Below the pieces are notes generated by a model, which was not told the origin of the DNA, ran no database searches, and worked only from the letters and a program-made list of their open reading frames with translations. Position numbers and translations under genes: made by a program. Shown here one piece after another: positions 11,533-34,476 of a DNA stretch of 34,476 bases; the stretch's first letter is position 1; the number at the start of each line of letters is the position of its first letter. Where the stretch lies: the IMG/VR virus record IMGVR_UViG_3300031862_000448, positions 1 to 34,476 of that record, one strand, 5' to 3'. The stretch comes from a virus.

Positions 11533-11633
11533 AAAAGAAAAGGCGGGCACCTCTAACGGCCTGGGAATCTGCTTCCCAAGGACATCAGAAGTGCCCGCCT
11601 ATCGTTGCGATGCTGGCAGGCCCTATTCAGTTG
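11533..11633 (-). ncRNA. Structured leader RNA, copy 1 (conserved block, 12-bp stem, T-rich run)
   Basis: From a predicted start near 11633 the minus strand carries GCCAGCATCGCAACGATA (11617-11600), then a stem with arms GGCGGGCACTTC (11599-11588) and GAGGTGCCCGCC (11553-11542) that pair over 12 bases with one G-U. An inner hairpin lies at 11580-11560 (CTTGGGAA, loop GCAGA, TTCCCAGG). TTTTCTTTT follows at 11541-11533 and then the ribosome binding site. The block, stem length, inner hairpin and T-rich run recur upstream of the portal gene with compensatory changes. It could be an attenuator, an antitermination element like HK022 put, or a terminator for upstream readthrough. Function is inferred; sequence and pairing are seen. 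Confidence 0.7.
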
Positions 11634-11639
11634 GCACCC

Positions 11640-11667
11640 ATTCTACCGGACCCGGGCCGGGTGTCAA
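11640..11667 (-). promoter_or_regulatory. Late promoter P(capsid), sigma70-like
   Basis: The minus strand has TTGACA (11667-11662), a 16-base spacer and TAGAAT (11645-11640). Transcription would start near 11633 and reach the 117-aa, scaffold and capsid genes after a leader of about 118 bases. TAGAAT is shared with the portal-gene promoter at 15602-15630, and both are followed by the same leader block. Confidence 0.68.
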
Positions 11668-15511: not shown

Positions 15512-15595
15512 AAAAGCAAAAGGCGAGCCCCACCCTGGGTAACCAGGAATGTGAGGCCCGCCTATCGTTGCGATGCTGGCGGAAGTTATTCGGTT
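15512..15595 (-). ncRNA. Structured leader RNA, copy 2 (same block and stem as copy 1)
   Basis: After a predicted start near 15595, the minus strand repeats GCCAGCATCGCAACGATA and the next seven bases exactly (25 of 25 with copy 1; 15580-15556). The stem arms are GGCGGGCCTCAC (15562-15551) and GTGGGGCTCGCC (15533-15522), pairing over 12 bases with two G-U pairs. Several positions differ from copy 1 on both arms, so pairing is kept by compensating changes. The inner hairpin is CCTGG, loop TTAC, CCAGG. TTTTGCTTTTG follows. The portal ATG is about 126 bases from the predicted start. Confidence 0.7.
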
Positions 15596-15843
15596 GACGG
15601 CATTCTATGCCGGATGCCAGTGCCCGTCAACGGCGGCCGGGTCTTTCCCAGGCGGTAGCACGAGCGGCGCTCAAGGACATCGACCTGGGTCGGCAGCCCA
15701 TCGTAGTAGGAGACGCGAATCACCACATCTCCGTAGCCGCACACCGACTCGGCCTCGCGTTGCAGTGCCTCCACGAGGTCATCCCAATGCTGCTTCTCCC
15801 TCGAAACCTGTCCTGAGCCCGCTGAAGGCATAGCCGTCACCAC
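15586..15843 (-). CDS. Small DUF2292/YezD-like protein
   Basis: The 85-residue product contains GYGDVVIRVSYYDGLPTQVD followed by VLERRSCYRL, close to the short beta pattern of the DUF2292 (YezD-like) family, whose function is unknown to me. The N-terminal 35 residues are helical. It overlaps the end of the terminase gene: the GTG at 15843, or the next GTG at 15840, which forms a GTGA overlap with the terminase stop. Its C-terminal codons contain the promoter for the portal leader (15602-15630). It is likely a small accessory packaging or regulatory protein, but this is only inferred from position. Confidence 0.65.
   Translation of the reverse strand: MVTAMPSAGSGQVSREKQHWDDLVEALQREAESVCGYGDVVIRVSYYDGLPTQVDVLERRSCYRLGKTRPPLTGTGIRHRMPSTE
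15602..15630 (-). promoter_or_regulatory. Late promoter P(portal), sigma70-like
   Basis: The minus strand has TTGACG (15630-15625), a 17-base spacer and TAGAAT (15607-15602), inside the 3' end of the 85-aa gene. Copy 2 of the leader block starts 21 bases after the -10, against 22 bases in copy 1. Both intervening stretches contain CAAC(C/T)GAATA. Confidence 0.65.
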
Positions 15844-17459
15844 CCGGCCGGTCGCTGCGTCGTGCCCCTGGACATTCCCCGTTTGCGCGCCTGCCAGGCG
15901 ATCCCGGCTGCCATCACCCGATCGTCAAACTTGCCCTCCTGCGCTTCCTGGGCACCCGTGTCCGTGGTGACGAAGGTCAGGCATTCGTCCACCAGATCGG
16001 GCGAGTGAATCAGCAGGTGGCCTCCTGCGATGGCTGCCGCCAGGTCATCCACCAGGATGGGCTTGGTGGCCTGGTCGGTGGGCCAGCCGAGCATGGGCTT
16101 CCCCCTGCCCGTCTGGTCGTAACGCACGTGGTAATAGAGCCGCGGGTAGCGGCACACATTGCGCAGCGTGTTGAGCGTGGAGTGCCCGTGGTTGTTGCGC
16201 TCCACCGCCACCGTCGCCAGGTTGTAGAAGCGCCCCAGGGCATCCAGCAGGTAGCCGAATCTGTCCGGCGGAATGCGCCCGTGCAGTTCGGCGACCTGCT
16301 CCCCGGTCTCGCGATCCAGGACACAGGCACATGATGCGTCGCCGCCCGCAAGTCCTTCGCCAACGTCAGCGCCCACCACGTAGAGTCGCCCCTTCTCCAG
16401 CCGCTTCCACACTGACAGCCGGGCAGGTGCAACCCCAATGCCCTGTTCCCGTGCATCCTTGAGGGTGGCCAGCATCTCCGGCGCGGTCTCTGCGGCGATG
16501 CGCGCCTGTGCGAGGAGCAACGCATCCGTGTCGAAGCAGCACCGCCCGCTCGCCAGGAAGCAGGTCACGTCGTCCTCAGGATACTCCTGCCGGAACCGCT
16601 CCCGCAGTTGTCGCTGCTTGCTGCGCCGCCAGCGAATCTGGTCGTCATCCAGGTTCCAGGCCCGCTTGAACCTTCGCTCCTCGTCGGTCAGGTCGTCGAG
16701 CGGCGCGCCGGCAATCCGGTTCTGCGGGTCTTCCCACCAGACGTATAGGTGCGTGGCAAACTCGTTCCCGCCGCCCTTTGCTTCCGCCCAAAGATCGTGA
16801 AAGTAGTTGCCCATACCATTGGCGGTGGACTCGATCACGATCCGCCCATCGGCTGGCACCGCCTCCGTGAGCGCGACCAACGCCTCCTGGGGCTTGGGCC
16901 AGAAGGCGAACTCGGAGCAGTGCAGGTTGTTGATCGTCTGCCCGCGCCCGAAGGTGAGCGCCCCGGCCGTCCCCACGTAGAACTGGCTGTTGATCGCCGG
17001 CCACAGGAACTCCCGCCGGTTGGAGAAGCGCGGCTCACCTGCTCGCAGGCGCTCCTGCTCCGGCAGTCGCTCCCAGAACAACTGCACGATGCGGAATATC
17101 TTCTCGCTCGAATCCGTGTCATGGGCCACGATCACTGAAGTAGTGTTGGGCCGCAGGATCGTATCAGCGAAGAACAGCCCGCAGATCACGGTGGTGAAGC
17201 CCAACTGCCGCGGCTTGAGGATGATGTCCCGAAGCCTGCGGTGATCCCAGTAATCCACCTGGGCCGCGTTGAGCAGGAACGGGATCACGCGCCTATCTTT
17301 CGTGCGAATCCACAGGTTCGCTTCGATCCACGGCCTGGGGTTCCGCCGCATCTCCAGCAGCACCTCCAGCCTCGCCTCCAGCACGCGCCGCACACGCTCG
17401 GAGGAAGGCAAGGGCAGATTCGGCCTCGCAGTCGCTGAGTCGGCGCAGGTCGAGGTCAC
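15837..17459 (-). CDS. terL: Terminase large subunit
   Basis: The 540-residue motor cuts concatemeric DNA and pumps it through the portal. The N-terminal ATPase has a variant Walker A-like segment KPRQLGFTT (about residues 83-91) and a strand ending LHCSEFAFW (about 179-187), where Ser-Glu stands in for the usual Asp-Glu, with IVIESTANG as motif III near 208-216. The RNase H-like nuclease has YVVGADVGEG (Asp near 365), VAVERNNHG (Glu near 420) and KFDDRVMA (Asp near 512). The GTG at 17459 is chosen because AGGAGG lies nine bases upstream; a TTG three bases earlier is possible. The start lies about 170 bases inside the small subunit gene. Confidence 0.95.
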   Translation of the reverse strand: MTSTCADSATARPNLPLPSSERVRRVLEARLEVLLEMRRNPRPWIEANLWIRTKDRRVIPFLLNAAQVDYWDHRRLRDIILKPRQLGFTTVICGLFFADTILRPNTTSVIVAHDTDSSEKIFRIVQLFWERLPEQERLRAGEPRFSNRREFLWPAINSQFYVGTAGALTFGRGQTINNLHCSEFAFWPKPQEALVALTEAVPADGRIVIESTANGMGNYFHDLWAEAKGGGNEFATHLYVWWEDPQNRIAGAPLDDLTDEERRFKRAWNLDDDQIRWRRSKQRQLRERFRQEYPEDDVTCFLASGRCCFDTDALLLAQARIAAETAPEMLATLKDAREQGIGVAPARLSVWKRLEKGRLYVVGADVGEGLAGGDASCACVLDRETGEQVAELHGRIPPDRFGYLLDALGRFYNLATVAVERNNHGHSTLNTLRNVCRYPRLYYHVRYDQTGRGKPMLGWPTDQATKPILVDDLAAAIAGGHLLIHSPDLVDECLTFVTTDTGAQEAQEGKFDDRVMAAGIAWQARKRGMSRGTTQRPAGW

Positions 17460-17862
17460 CAAGCAACACCTCCTCGGGCACTTTCTCCATCAGCCCCAAT
17501 GACTGCAGTATCTTCACCCGCTGCTCGATGCTCTTGAGCACGATGTTCAGGAAGCGGGCCCGGGCCGGCGATCCCTCCGGCGCGGCCAGGCAGTCGGCCC
17601 AGGCCTGGCGGGTGGCCGCGTCGAACTCGGCGCAGGCCTCCAGGCCAGCATCGAGCACCCCTACCTGAGCCTCCTGCGCCTTGCGCAGCAGGCTCCGGCC
17701 CCGTGCCCGCACCGCTGCCAGGTCGCGCTTGACCGTGGTCTCGCTGACGCCGAGCAGTTCGGCGACCTCCGAAACCTCCAGCTTGCGCACCACCCGCATG
17801 TGCCACGCTTGGCGCTGGCGGTTGGCAAGCGCTCTTCGTGTTTCCACCGACCGGGCAGGCAT
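17293..17862 (-). CDS. terS: Terminase small subunit (HTH protein)
   Basis: The 189-residue product should recognise the packaging site and stimulate the large subunit. Residues about 25-55 form a helix-turn-helix (VSEVAELLGVSETTVKRDLA) of the type found in terminase small subunits. A helical middle with ARFLNIVLKSIEQRVKILQS is the likely oligomerisation part. The C-terminal 35 residues are Ala/Gly-rich and probably disordered; this tail overlaps the terL start over about 170 bases. The ATG at 17862 follows GAGG by nine bases, while a TTG at 17868 gives the longest frame. An HTH regulator is the alternative, but its place directly before terL favours TerS. Confidence 0.83.
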   Translation of the reverse strand: MPARSVETRRALANRQRQAWHMRVVRKLEVSEVAELLGVSETTVKRDLAAVRARGRSLLRKAQEAQVGVLDAGLEACAEFDAATRQAWADCLAAPEGSPARARFLNIVLKSIEQRVKILQSLGLMEKVPEEVLLGDLDLRRLSDCEAESALAFLRACAARAGGEAGGAAGDAAEPQAVDRSEPVDSHER

Positions 17863-17895
17863 CTTCAAGCGCCTCTGGCGTCATTTCTCCAAACG

Positions 17896-17915: not shown

Positions 17916-17923
17916 CCGTAACA

Positions 17924-17946
17924 GAAAAAGCCGCTCGCAGGCGGCT
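17924..17946 (-). terminator. Terminator-like hairpin in the TerS leader
   Basis: On the minus strand AGCCGC, loop CTGCGA and GCGGCT are followed by TTTTCTGTT. It lies between the ParB-like gene and TerS, but also immediately after the promoter at 17955-17983, so it would stop new transcripts after about 25-30 bases unless bypassed. Confidence 0.65.
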
Positions 17947-17954
17947 CTGCGGCC

Positions 17955-17983
17955 ATTATACCGCTGGTTCTGCCACCTAACAA
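17955..17983 (-). promoter_or_regulatory. Late promoter P(ter), sigma70-like
   Basis: The minus strand has TTGTTA (17983-17978), a 17-base spacer and a perfect TATAAT (17960-17955). The predicted start, near 17948, is at the foot of the terminator-like hairpin. It would drive TerS, TerL and the small following gene. Confidence 0.65.
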
Positions 17984-18000: not shown

Positions 18001-18645
18001 TCACTCCTCTGTCGGCGTGTCATCGGTTCCTTGCAGGTAGACTTCACATACGCGCTCCAGGCATTGCCCGCGACGCGCGTTCCTGCCCAGTTCCTCCTTC
18101 GCTGCCGCCATCGCTCGCTCGAACTGCTCGTGTTCCCTGCCAAGTAAGACGACGGTCACCGGAATGGGCGCCTCGGCTGCGTCGCGGGCTGCCTGCTCCT
18201 CCAGTTTGTCCTGCAGGTCGGCGGGGAGCTTCAGGAGCTCCAGGGAGTCGCGCAACTGGCTGGCCGACCAGGGCAGCATCTTCACCAGATCGTCCACGGA
18301 GTAGGTGCGGTTCAGGTCGTGCACTAGGTTGGCGAGCCGCACTGGTATTGGCTGACCCCGCAGGTAGTTGAGCTGGAGGCCCCGCACCTTGGCCTCTTCG
18401 GGCGAGATGTCCCATACCTCGCAGGGCAGTTCTTCGAGGCCGAGGTCGCCCGCCGCCTTCCAGCGGTGATAGCCGTCCACCAGTAGAAAGTCGCCCTCGC
18501 GCTCAGGGTCGGGCATGACCTTGAGCGGCTCCATGATGCCTTTCTCCCGGATGCTCTCTACCAGCTTCGGATAGTTGGCTGGGTCGAAGGCGTTCGCGTT
18601 CCACTCGTTCGGTCGAATGCGCTCTCGCGCGATCATCTCAGGCAT
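18001..18645 (-). CDS. ParB/Srx-fold protein
   Basis: The 214-residue product has the ParB/sulfiredoxin N-terminal domain at about residues 1-85: VESIREKGIMEPLKVMPD, then the phosphate-binding loop LVDGYHRWKAAGDLG, and LPCEVWDISPEEAKVRGLQL. A helix-turn-helix region follows at about 100-145 (YSVDDLVKMLPWSASQLRDS). In phages such proteins lie near terminase and may act as DNA-binding regulators, CTP-dependent clamps or nucleases; no partition partner ParA is seen. A GGGAGGT precedes the ATG at 18645, which overlaps the end of the DUF4406 gene by eight bases. Its position as last gene before the late promoter is compatible with a late regulator (inference). Confidence 0.82.
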   Translation of the reverse strand: MPEMIARERIRPNEWNANAFDPANYPKLVESIREKGIMEPLKVMPDPEREGDFLLVDGYHRWKAAGDLGLEELPCEVWDISPEEAKVRGLQLNYLRGQPIPVRLANLVHDLNRTYSVDDLVKMLPWSASQLRDSLELLKLPADLQDKLEEQAARDAAEAPIPVTVVLLGREHEQFERAMAAAKEELGRNARRGQCLERVCEVYLQGTDDTPTEE

Positions 18646-19025: not shown

Positions 19026-19442
19026 TCACCGCGTCTTCATGATCACGACGAGCAAGTACTCCCGCCCGCAGCGCCAGCAGCTCGTCTGGCGTCTCATCAC
19101 GCCCAGAGGGAGCGCCTCACCGCAGGGACAGTTCACCCAGGCACCTGCATGAGAGCGCCGCCAGTTCTTGCCTTCCGGACCGAAAGTGGACCACGGCCCT
19201 GTGCGAGGCAGGGAAGGAGTGCCCCAGAAAAAGTGCGCGCGGCTGCGTTGACCGCCGGGCTGTCGATACTTGCCCCGGCATTGCACGCGGCCGAGCTTCG
19301 CCAGCAGTAGCAGGCGCTGGCGGGCGCGCTCATAACTGATCTCCAGGCGCTCTGCAACCTCGGCGGTTGAGAGCGCCCCGGACGTTCGAAGAAGGTCGCT
19401 GACCACATTCAGATCCGCTTCTTTGCGTTCCCAACGAGTCAT
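19026..19442 (-). CDS. Winged-helix protein with C-terminal zinc ribbon
   Basis: The 138-residue product has a winged-helix domain at about residues 8-55 (LSTAEVAERLEISYERARQR) and a zinc ribbon at about 104-128 formed by CPCG (Cys105, Cys107) and CWRCG (Cys122, Cys125). It is probably a DNA-binding regulator. A GGAGGAAA stands upstream of the ATG at 19442. The middle is rich in Gly, Pro and Trp and may be flexible. No known phage regulator family was recognised, so target and role are unknown. It could regulate the late promoter about 1 kb downstream, but that is speculation. Confidence 0.7.
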   Translation of the reverse strand: MTRWERKEADLNVVSDLLRTSGALSTAEVAERLEISYERARQRLLLLAKLGRVQCRGKYRQPGGQRSRAHFFWGTPSLPRTGPWSTFGPEGKNWRRSHAGAWVNCPCGEALPLGVMRRQTSCWRCGREYLLVVIMKTR

Positions 19443-27333: not shown

Positions 27334-29604
27334 TCAGGCCGCGATCATCTGCACGCGGCTGCCCTCCGCATTCTTTGTGACCTCGAAGCGGAAGGGGAAC
27401 AATTCCTTGAGTTCCTCCACGTGGGTGATGACAAGGATGGTGGCGAAGCGCTCGGCCACCTTTTGGAGGCACTCGACGAACAGCGCCCGCCCCTGCGCGT
27501 CCAGAGGTGCGGCGGTCTCGTCCAATACCAGGAGTTCGCAGCGCGCGCCGGCGCGACTGGCGAGCAGCACGGAGAGCGCGATACGCAGGGCGAGGTCAAC
27601 TCTCATCGCCTCGCCGCCGGAGAAGTTCTCGTAGGGCCGCGAGCCGCGCTCGTCGGCGATGATGATGTCCAGCGTCTCCTGGAGCGTCTTCGCCTTGGTC
27701 TCCCGTTGGCTGCGAAGCTCCAGGGACATGCGGCCATCGCTCAGCACCGACAGCACATCGTTGGCGACGGCCTCCAGGTCAGGCACGGCCTTCTCGATCA
27801 GCAGCGCCGGGATGCCCTGCTTGCCGAAGGCCTGGGCGAGCACCTTGAGCACCTGCAGGCGACGCTCGCCTTCGCGCAGTTCAGTCGCCAGCCGCTCGGC
27901 TTCCTTCGCTGCTTCCTCGGCTGCTCGCAGACGCTCCTCCAGGCTGCCCCGCTGCTGCCGCAGGGACTGGATGCGAGCCTGGAGATCGCCAATCGCAGCC
28001 CGCGTCTCCTTGATGTTCCGCTCCACCTGCGCCAGCATCGCATCCCAGTTGCGCTGAGGGCCGAGTTCCTTCTCGAGGGCAGCCTTGCGCTCCGCGATCT
28101 GCTTCGCCTCGGCCTGGATCGCGTCCAAGTTGGCCTGCACCTCGACCATCTGGGCTTCGGCGCGCTCGACTCCGCGCAGCGCCTGCTGGAGTTCCTGAAG
28201 TCGCGCCGCCTGGCGCTTGGCTTCGGCGTGCTCCTTCGGGGCGTAGGCGATTTCCGTGCGCTGCTCGGCAATCTCACGCAGGCGTGCGGCCTCTTCGTCA
28301 CCAGCGGTCTGGCCCTGCAGCTCGGTGAGTTTGCACTCGTCCTCCGCCCAGGGCTGCTCTGACTGCAATTGCTTGTGTCGGTCTTCGAGCCCCGGCAGTG
28401 CAGCTCGCGCTTCACGCGCCTGCGCAATGAGCGGACAACCCTCCGCCAGTCCCTTCGCGTCCCGCGCCATGCACGGTACCTGGTCAAGGACTGCGCTCTG
28501 CTTGGTGAGCAGCGCAATCTGCTGATTGAGGCCTTTGACCTCGCGCTCGTGTGAGGCTCGCAGGTGCTGGATGCGCTCCTTCAACGCGTCCACCTTGCGG
28601 GCATGCTCTGCGACTGCGGACTGCTGCCGCTGGCGAACGAGTTCGGCCTCGTGGCGCAGCCGCTCATCCTCTTGGCGCTTGGCCTCCAACTCCTGGGAGT
28701 ACGTCTGCGCCTCTTCGGCCCGCCGCAGGCCTTCGAGAATGGCGGGCTTGTCCTTCACCGTCCGGCGCAACGTCTCGAGCCGGGACGCAACTTCGCTTAT
28801 GCCGGCCTGCGCCCGTTGCGCCCGGGCGGCAAGGTCATCGAGTTCCTTGCGGCGAGCGCGGTCAGCCTCCCGATCGCGCAGGAGCGCCTCCTTCGCCTCC
28901 TGCGCTTGGGCAAGGTCGCCCTCGGCTTGCGCCGATTGCCGCGCCACGTCGCCCTGTGTGGCTTCATTCTGGGCGACCTGCTCCCGTAAGCCGTCCACTG
29001 CAGCAGCCGCAGCACACAGCGTCTCGTGGCGCGCCTTTTCGCCCTCGATGCGCGCTGCCAGGTCGCGCCCTATCTGCCGCGTCATCTCTGCGCGGCGCTC
29101 CCAGGCGGCCAGGTCGAGAATGTCAGAGAGCACCTGCTTGCGCTCTGCTGGCTTGGACTGGCTGAAAGCGGCCGCATTGCCCTGGTTGGCGCAGGCGGTG
29201 ACAGTGAAGAGGTCATCCGTCAGGCGGAGCGCCTGCTCGATGCGAGCCTGAGTCTCGGCCACCGATTTGCCGTCCAGCACCGCCGAACCGTCGCCGTTCG
29301 TCATCTGGAACGAAAGCAGCGTGCTCCCGCTCCCCTTGCGGCTGCGAGCGCGACTGACGAGGTAGGTCTCCTCCCCCAGGGCGAAAGCAAACTCCACGCG
29401 GCAGTCCTGCTCGCCCTCGGTGATCACGCCATCCAGACCGCCACGAGTGTGGCCAAAGAGGGCAAAGCGAATGCCGTCGATCACGCTTGACTTCCCGGCC
29501 CCGTTCTGGCCTGTGAGCGCGGCGAGGGTAACGCCATCGAACTCTATGGTGTGCTCGCCGCGATAGGAGAGGAAGTTGTTCAGGGAGAGGCGGAGGGGCC
29601 TCAT
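27334..29604 (-). CDS. Rad50/SbcC-like ATPase of the recombination nuclease
   Basis: The 756-residue protein is the ATPase partner of the SbcD-like nuclease. Walker A is TGQNGAGKSS (31-40), the Q-loop CANQGN lies near 138-143, the ABC signature NFSGGE near 660-665 and Walker B LLVLDE near 691-696. Two long coiled coils flank the hook region at about 370-395. There the cysteines are Cys378 and Cys390 (VPCMARDAKGLAEGCPLI), spaced by 11 residues and not the normal CXXC zinc hook. It should process double-strand ends for phage recombination and replication, as T4 gp46/gp47 do. The ATG overlaps the upstream stop as ATGA. Confidence 0.94.
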   Translation of the reverse strand: MRPLRLSLNNFLSYRGEHTIEFDGVTLAALTGQNGAGKSSVIDGIRFALFGHTRGGLDGVITEGEQDCRVEFAFALGEETYLVSRARSRKGSGSTLLSFQMTNGDGSAVLDGKSVAETQARIEQALRLTDDLFTVTACANQGNAAAFSQSKPAERKQVLSDILDLAAWERRAEMTRQIGRDLAARIEGEKARHETLCAAAAAVDGLREQVAQNEATQGDVARQSAQAEGDLAQAQEAKEALLRDREADRARRKELDDLAARAQRAQAGISEVASRLETLRRTVKDKPAILEGLRRAEEAQTYSQELEAKRQEDERLRHEAELVRQRQQSAVAEHARKVDALKERIQHLRASHEREVKGLNQQIALLTKQSAVLDQVPCMARDAKGLAEGCPLIAQAREARAALPGLEDRHKQLQSEQPWAEDECKLTELQGQTAGDEEAARLREIAEQRTEIAYAPKEHAEAKRQAARLQELQQALRGVERAEAQMVEVQANLDAIQAEAKQIAERKAALEKELGPQRNWDAMLAQVERNIKETRAAIGDLQARIQSLRQQRGSLEERLRAAEEAAKEAERLATELREGERRLQVLKVLAQAFGKQGIPALLIEKAVPDLEAVANDVLSVLSDGRMSLELRSQRETKAKTLQETLDIIIADERGSRPYENFSGGEAMRVDLALRIALSVLLASRAGARCELLVLDETAAPLDAQGRALFVECLQKVAERFATILVITHVEELKELFPFRFEVTKNAEGSRVQMIAA

Positions 29605-34079: not shown

Positions 34080-34108
34080 TTGACATTTTTCTTACCTTGA
34101 GGTAAAAT
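34080..34108 (+). promoter_or_regulatory. Repressor promoter, plus strand, with operator
   Basis: TTGACA (34080-34085), a 17-base spacer and TAAAAT (34103-34108). The predicted start, seven or eight bases later, falls on or next to the ATG at 34116, so the mRNA is probably leaderless, as for lambda cI from PRM. Confidence 0.65.
34092..34105. promoter_or_regulatory. Operator-like palindrome in the repressor promoter
   Basis: TTACCT-TG-AGGTAA is a perfect six-base inverted repeat around two bases, lying between the -35 and -10 of the repressor promoter, where bound protein would block polymerase. A near-copy lies at 11672-11690. Confidence 0.6.
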
Positions 34109-34115
34109 CCACGAC

Positions 34116-34476
34116 ATGACTGACAAGAGCACGGTTGGGCCGCTGATCCGCCGCCTGCGCGGGGAGATGAGCCAGTGGGAACTGTCTCGGCGCTCCGGGG
34201 TGAGCAATGCCGAGATCTCCCGCATCGAGAGCGGGAAGCGCGACAACCCACATCCGCACACTCTCCAGAAGCTGGCGGGGGCGCTGGGGGTGGACCCCGA
34301 GGAACTCTACCGCGCCGCTGGCTACCTGCGAGGGGAGCCTTCCCCGGCCCTGGGCGAGACGGGGTTCAAGGCCATCGGGCTGCGCATTCGCACGGCGCGG
34401 GAAGTCGCCGGGCTCTCTGTGGAGGAACTCGCCAGGCGCATCGGGGTGGAATCCGCCGACGTGGAGCGCTGGGAAA
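34116..34476 (+). CDS. Repressor-like protein with tandem HTH domains (3' end outside window)
   Basis: This plus-strand frame has 120 codons in the window and continues past its end. A first XRE-type HTH covers residues about 8-66 (MSQWELSRRSGVSNAEISRI and LAGALGVDPEELYRAAGY). A second starts near residue 88 (IGLRIRTAREVAGLSVEEL, then ARRIGVESADVERWE). Divergent orientation from the early operon and the embedded operator fit a lysogeny repressor that controls itself. No ribosome binding site at normal distance is present; GAGG is 13 bases upstream and within the promoter, supporting leaderless initiation. Confidence 0.85.
   Translation, partial: MTDKSTVGPLIRRLRGEMSQWELSRRSGVSNAEISRIESGKRDNPHPHTLQKLAGALGVDPEELYRAAGYLRGEPSPALGETGFKAIGLRIRTAREVAGLSVEELARRIGVESADVERWE

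Follow-up and report, generated by a model that had tools for sequence, protein, structure and literature searches.

A promoter with a 5′ hairpin before the terminase genes, and two separate leaders with phage-specific hairpins, in an uncultivated phage

We analysed a 34,476-nucleotide stretch of viral DNA (IMG/VR record IMGVR_UViG_3300031862_000448, positions 1 to 34,476; here called the window) together with related phage contigs. The reading that we favour, and consider probable, has two parts: a promoter for the terminase genes that carries an attenuator hairpin at the 5′ end of its RNA, and a separate switch made of two other leaders, with the small protein g15586 as a candidate for its specificity. 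An earlier reading of the same DNA (the original prediction) had instead placed three late promoters under one lambda-like control system.

A promoter and a GC hairpin before the terminase genes

The features around the terminase site are as follows.

18001-18645, minus strand: ParB-like gene upstream of the site, an earlier candidate for the control protein that is not favoured here
17978-17983, minus strand: −35 element TTGTTA, 4/6 consensus, from a string scan and shuffle test
17955-17960, minus strand: −10 element TATAAT, 6/6 consensus, at the same place in relatives G004, G005 and G007
17921-17948, minus strand: intrinsic-terminator-like element with predicted RNA start at 17948, GC hairpin at 17947-17928 and U-rich tail
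17293-17868, minus strand: TerS-like gene with HTH, the first gene downstream of the site
15837-17462, minus strand: TerL, terminase large subunit

Flanking the site are the ParB-like gene, whose stop is at 18001, and TerS/TerL (17868-15837). On the minus strand, 17 nt separate TTGTTA (17983-17978) from TATAAT (17960-17955), which is the only TATAAT on either strand of the window. RNA is predicted to start at 17948, 7 nt downstream of TATAAT. When the RNA is folded from this position, 17947-17941 pair with 17934-17928 (−11.7 kcal/mol), followed by UUUUUCUGUU. With its GC-rich stem of 7-8 bp and the U-tract UUUUUCUG directly after it, this third site of the window has the form of an intrinsic terminator, and the hairpin at 17947-17928 is predicted to terminate transcription. 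The strings of the TTGTTA-17-TATAAT promoter and of the terminator-like hairpin are present just as the original prediction described them, and a promoter with a compact terminator at most 15 nt away arose in 0 of 300 dinucleotide shuffles. Promoters scoring at least 10/12 number four in the window, where 300 dinucleotide shuffles averaged 0.25; terminator-like sites counted alone are at chance level (10 found vs 9.4). The promoter-hairpin motif at the terminase site exceeds chance.

Recurrence at the same position in related phages

Searches of viral contigs returned 80 loci for TerL, 45 for the portal protein and 22 for g11162, and relatives with about 60-97% TerL identity were syntenic with the window; eight whole contigs (G001-G008) were compared. 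TerS as a query confirmed no relatives, and tblastn inside the TerL loci does find TerS. A search for the host among GTDB species genomes, by alignments of portal and TerL, gave no confirmed match.

The eight related genomes examined for TATAAT (G001-G007 and the window; 403 kb) contain 15 copies, four of them just before the terminase module. All four are followed by a GC hairpin that starts near +1, and three have an extended −10 (TGnTATAAT), the exception being the window. A TATAAT with an immediate terminator occurs in two of the 15 (window and G004), and these are the two of the four terminase-module sites with a U-tract after the hairpin. The remaining two of the four, in G005 (29171) and G007 (52273), occupy the same place ahead of the terminase module and have GC hairpins that lack a U-tract. 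The G004 site reads TCGACG-17-TATAAT-9-GCCGCCTGCG...GGCGGCTTTTT, spaced as in the window, and stands just before the methyltransferase gene; its U-tract, UUUUUGUUUG, abuts the stem directly, as does UUUUUCUG in the window. The G004 and G007 hairpins, of 13 bp each, are clearly related, with paired changes between them, and the window hairpin shares GCCGCCTGCG; homology of the G005 hairpin is not clear. Between the G005 promoter-hairpin and TerS lie about 220 nt without an obvious gene (28947-29171), possibly a structured RNA.

Seven of these eight genomes were testable at the junction, G006 being left out as a contig that starts inside TerL. Four have the promoter-hairpin (window, G004, G005 and G007) and three do not (G001-G003). 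It is likewise absent at the ParB-terminase junction of L003, L004, L009, L006 and L088. In G001-G003, L003, L004 and L009 a ParB-methyltransferase gene lies directly 3′ of ParB, and in L006 and L088 the ParB-terminase junction has no gap. Because these phages have no counterpart of the site, it is dispensable. As G005 and G007 keep promoter and hairpin without the U-tract, the recurring part is the promoter with its 5′ hairpin; the terminator form is found in two of the four only. The proposal that the window has three promoters of the pR′-tR′ type holds insofar as each is followed by a terminator or a terminator-like element, but at the terminase site this form is kept in just half of the four relatives.

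A generic promoter-terminator pattern matched 72 stretches in viral contigs, mostly from AT-rich unrelated phages; the one relative among them was L191, which is the G004 contig. Several unrelated phages (L179, L192, L226, L238, L246 and the similar L217) carry a near-consensus TTGACA-17-TATAAT followed immediately by a terminator. A promoter with an immediate hairpin and U-tract also precedes a LexA-like gene in G002 (2819-2880; L131). At 34080-34476 on the plus strand of the window, a strong promoter, TTGACA-17-TAAAAT, precedes a divergently oriented gene for an XRE-type repressor-like protein, cut off by the end of the window; the arrangement suggests a lysogeny switch.

Readings of the terminase site

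The site is probably a true promoter of the sigma-70 type that serves the terminase module, (ParB-methyltransferase)-TerS-TerL, and its RNA is predicted to start at the foot of the GC hairpin. Because the U-tract is present in the window and in G004, the hairpin should work there as an intrinsic terminator, with termination predicted about 20-27 nt from the start in the window and roughly 35-40 nt in G004. The hairpin would cut down the output of the terminase promoter and would also block readthrough from the ParB operon. Counting against this reading, the window −35 element matches consensus at only four of six positions and the extended −10 is missing. A terminator that starts at +1 leaves RNA polymerase little RNA, and its strength may be low.

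Alternatively, the 5′ GC hairpin might shield the terminase mRNA from decay or tune its translation, the U-tract being incidental, an explanation that we regard as doubtful. The G004 and G007 hairpins keep their pairing through paired changes and the U-tract is not kept, as this explanation would have it, but UUUUUCUG in the window and UUUUUGUUUG in G004 directly abut the stem, as in an efficient terminator, and the window stem is short (7 bp). It is unlikely that the hairpin merely ends transcription of the ParB operon upstream and that the TATAAT is accidental. The hairpin, at 54-73 nt past the ParB stop codon, has an ordinary terminator form, and terminator-like sites are common in the window; TATAAT, however, is very rare (15 copies in 403 kb, one of them in the window), yet four of the 15 are found here, three of them with an extended −10. 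Moreover, without a U-tract, two of the four hairpins are not ordinary terminators, and the G004 hairpin adjoins the start of the methyltransferase gene, not the end of ParB. A true pR′-tR′ attenuator, at which a short RNA would always be made and readthrough would require a phage factor common to all three leaders, is improbable: promoter and terminator do stand in tandem, G004 has identical geometry and the genome has two further attenuator-type leaders, but the recognition hairpin is missing at the site, the U-tract is present in just two of the four phages with the promoter and many relatives have no such site at all. The terminase site, read as a promoter with a 5′ hairpin attenuator, lacks the recognition element of the late-gene control that the other two leaders appear to share.

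Leaders of the portal gene and g11162

The two other leaders have the following parts.

15602-15630, minus strand: portal-leader promoter, TTGACG-17-TAGAAT
15557-15583, minus strand: portal-leader recognition hairpin, its 3′ arm being the 5′ arm of the terminator
15512-15562, minus strand: portal-leader terminator
11640-11667, minus strand: g11162-leader promoter, TTGACA-16-TAGAAT
11593-11621, minus strand: g11162-leader recognition hairpin, with the same core, AGCATCGCAACGATA, as the portal leader
11533-11599, minus strand: g11162-leader terminator

An exact 24-mer is common to both leaders, inside the hairpin CCGCC-AGC-AUCG-CAA-CGAU-A-GGCGG, and in relatives, leaders of this architecture precede the portal gene as well as g11162 or the gene upstream of it. 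Across 32 distinct leaders (alignment A2), 84.8% of 369 cells in the hairpin were paired, as compared with 32-47% in slid controls, and double-change cells numbered 32 vs 9.5 in shuffles; seven pairs were changed on both sides, a number that 83 of 500 shuffles matched and that is not significant by itself. The alignment leaves out the near-identical leaders of L004, L007, L086, L151 and L155, and three of its 32 rows, the portal leaders of L020, L084 and L092, were added by hand, the scan having missed them. Among the 32 leaders examined for overlap with the terminator, the L092 portal leader fell short of the U-tract criterion; in 31 of the 31 with a detectable U-tract, the 5′ arm of the terminator lay at most 2 nt from the 3′ arm of the hairpin. 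Folding of the growing transcript gave the hairpin first and the terminator later, the two being mutually exclusive. In these leaders, then, a short hairpin vies with a terminator for one strand, on the evidence of computed pairing, overlap and covariation.

A covariance model (R1), searched against nine contigs, gave 16 matches of at least 30.7 bits, most of which belonged to its training set, and the next best match scored 14.5 bits. Eight contigs had two matches each and G008 had none; the window leaders scored 48.1 and 47.1 bits. When the window and the G contigs were withheld from training, the resulting second model placed 13 of the 16 above all background (window leaders 42.7 and 32.2 bits), and the three portal leaders of G001-G003 fell into the background. 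Contigs were searched in 20-kb pieces, so a copy spanning a cut would be missed. At the terminase site we found neither the 24-mer, with up to 3 mismatches allowed, nor a covariance match even in an unfiltered search, which argues against one control system for all three promoters. None of the three window leaders matched Rfam up to E 5, and we found no description of the portal/g11162 leader family in the literature, subscription papers having been largely outside the search.

That the inverted repeat is a DNA operator for a DNA-binding protein, not an RNA switch, is very improbable: the inner core is near-palindromic and the partner gene described below tracks it, but G-U pairs, which would break DNA symmetry, occur in 7 of 12 pairs (for example CG:18, UG:13 at columns 26/44), the internal loop is asymmetric and the overlap with the terminator arm is found in 31 of 31 leaders.

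Some relatives carry additional elements near these leaders. L164 has an extra hairpin with a T-run (2136-2190) between the promoter and the g11162-leader hairpin. In L003, L083, L095, L097 and L151, an inserted GC inverted repeat, about 40 nt long, separates the −10 of the leader upstream of g11162 from its GAATA element. Cargo genes are inserted between TerL/partner gene and portal leader in L084, L096 and L085 (G001-G003); there, a promoter adjoins the inverted repeat GTTTCACCG. L020 keeps a short remnant.

Phage-specific cores and the gene after TerL

Within a genome, both leaders have an identical or near-identical hairpin core; between genomes the core differs. Over nine genome types, the within-genome core edit distances sum to 8 vs a permuted mean of 49.5, and 0 of 20,000 permutations were as low. 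The window and L003, for example, have portal proteins that are 96% identical and different cores in both leaders. Since the core varies from phage to phage, the window 24-mer is unmatched in the 80 TerL loci even with up to 6 mismatches. The exact window 22-mer has no match in viral contigs.

Two genes of the window bear on the matching protein.

15586-15831, minus strand: g15586, an 81-aa protein right after TerL, putative specificity partner of the leader hairpins
19026-19442, minus strand: wHTH/zinc-ribbon-like gene, an earlier candidate with no relative found

Among phages with the core AUCAUCGYGCAGAUAC, the post-TerL protein is 88-99% identical, and window g15586 is about 42% identical to these; phages with the core CUCG-AUAA-CGAG have an unrelated 86-aa gene after TerL. 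In profile searches, exactly one of the two post-TerL gene types was present in 12 of 12 phages. The post-TerL gene correlated with the hairpin core found some 4 kb away in the second leader (Mantel r 0.66, p 0.00005, n=11). The rows are related phages, so all such p values are rough. Nine other gene segments gave r 0.05-0.49 with the core: TerL C-terminus 0.10, TerL middle 0.17, portal 0.11, minor capsid 0.08, scaffold 0.07, MCP 0.15 and TerS 0.05, with g11162 marginal (r 0.22, p 0.041, n=10) and ParB weak (r 0.49, p 0.046, n=7). Restricted to the six closest phages, the correlation was r 0.92 (p 0.015) for the partner gene, with five flanking gene segments at −0.26 to 0.12.

Neither protein singled out in the original prediction fared well. 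A search of 16 relative loci found no match to the wHTH/zinc-ribbon gene, and ParB is 92-94% identical between L004 and L001/L002/L005 despite quite different cores; ParB is thereby less likely but, given its weak correlation with the core, not fully rejected. DUF4406, 86-95% identical between the same phages, whose hairpin cores are quite different, and TerS, on the Mantel value given above, are likewise rejected or weakened as candidates. The gene after TerL (15586-15831) is a better specificity candidate than these (r 0.66, n=11). Its differences by codon position (14, 11 and 62) fall mostly at the third, as in a real gene. An AlphaFold model of g15586 has a helix and a beta hairpin (pLDDT 74, moderate); a fold search gave nothing below E 1, its profile found chance-level matches only among PDB chains, and it was unmatched in annotated phages. 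The post-TerL proteins scored below the gathering score of the nearest Pfam family, DUF2292, with one of 12 members at E 0.039. On the computed correlation, the phage-specific hairpin core appears to be matched by the small post-TerL protein. Its binding would stabilize the hairpin and lead to transcription readthrough.

Discussion

Taken further, these data may describe a modular late-gene switch, a model that we offer tentatively. A small post-TerL protein and two cognate hairpins would form a private antitermination code in which binding blocks the terminators and which, with two unrelated protein types, is swapped as a unit between phages; the terminase promoter device would be separate, an RNA-start hairpin that turns into a terminator given a U-tract. 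What had been a guess at lambda-like control becomes a defined pairing of one named small gene with a hairpin that occurs in two leaders, and natural swaps between phages predict the specificity of such pairs. If true, uncultivated phages would possess a compact antitermination code that is new and comes in several orthogonal pairs. The terminase site, in turn, separates a recurring part (promoter and 5′ hairpin) from a non-recurring one (terminator).

In the pR′-tR′/Q system of lambda, the late promoter is followed by a terminator, so late genes need readthrough. The late promoters of the window likewise have a terminator before late genes. They differ from lambda in that an RNA hairpin overlaps the terminator in the portal and g11162 leaders, and in that the terminase site has neither the leader hairpin nor a conserved terminator. 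No Q-like antiterminator was found among 20 proteins of the window, a partial contig, in Pfam (ten also in PHROGs).

Attenuators of the LicT/BglG and ANTAR types have mutually exclusive antiterminator and terminator hairpins. The leaders resemble them in that the 3′ arm of the leader hairpin is the 5′ arm of the terminator, with stabilization by a protein predicted. Unlike them, the leaders have one bulged hairpin whose core is phage-specific, the terminase site does without it, and the candidate partner is small and unmatched to those protein families; no CAT/PRD antiterminator was matched in Pfam by the 20 proteins of this partial contig or by the post-TerL families.

In lambda N with nut/boxB, a protein particular to the phage and encoded nearby matches an RNA hairpin that is likewise phage-specific, and here, too, a phage-specific leader hairpin has a phage-specific candidate protein encoded close by. 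In contrast to nut/boxB, the leader hairpin itself vies with the terminator, and an N-like peptide was not identified.

The put element of HK022 is about 70 nt long, has two stem-loops and requires no dedicated protein (PMC9378689). Our leaders are not put elements: each has one short hairpin, which covaries with a neighbouring gene. What they share with put (PMC9378689) is a promoter-proximal RNA structure that governs termination, in our leaders by prediction.
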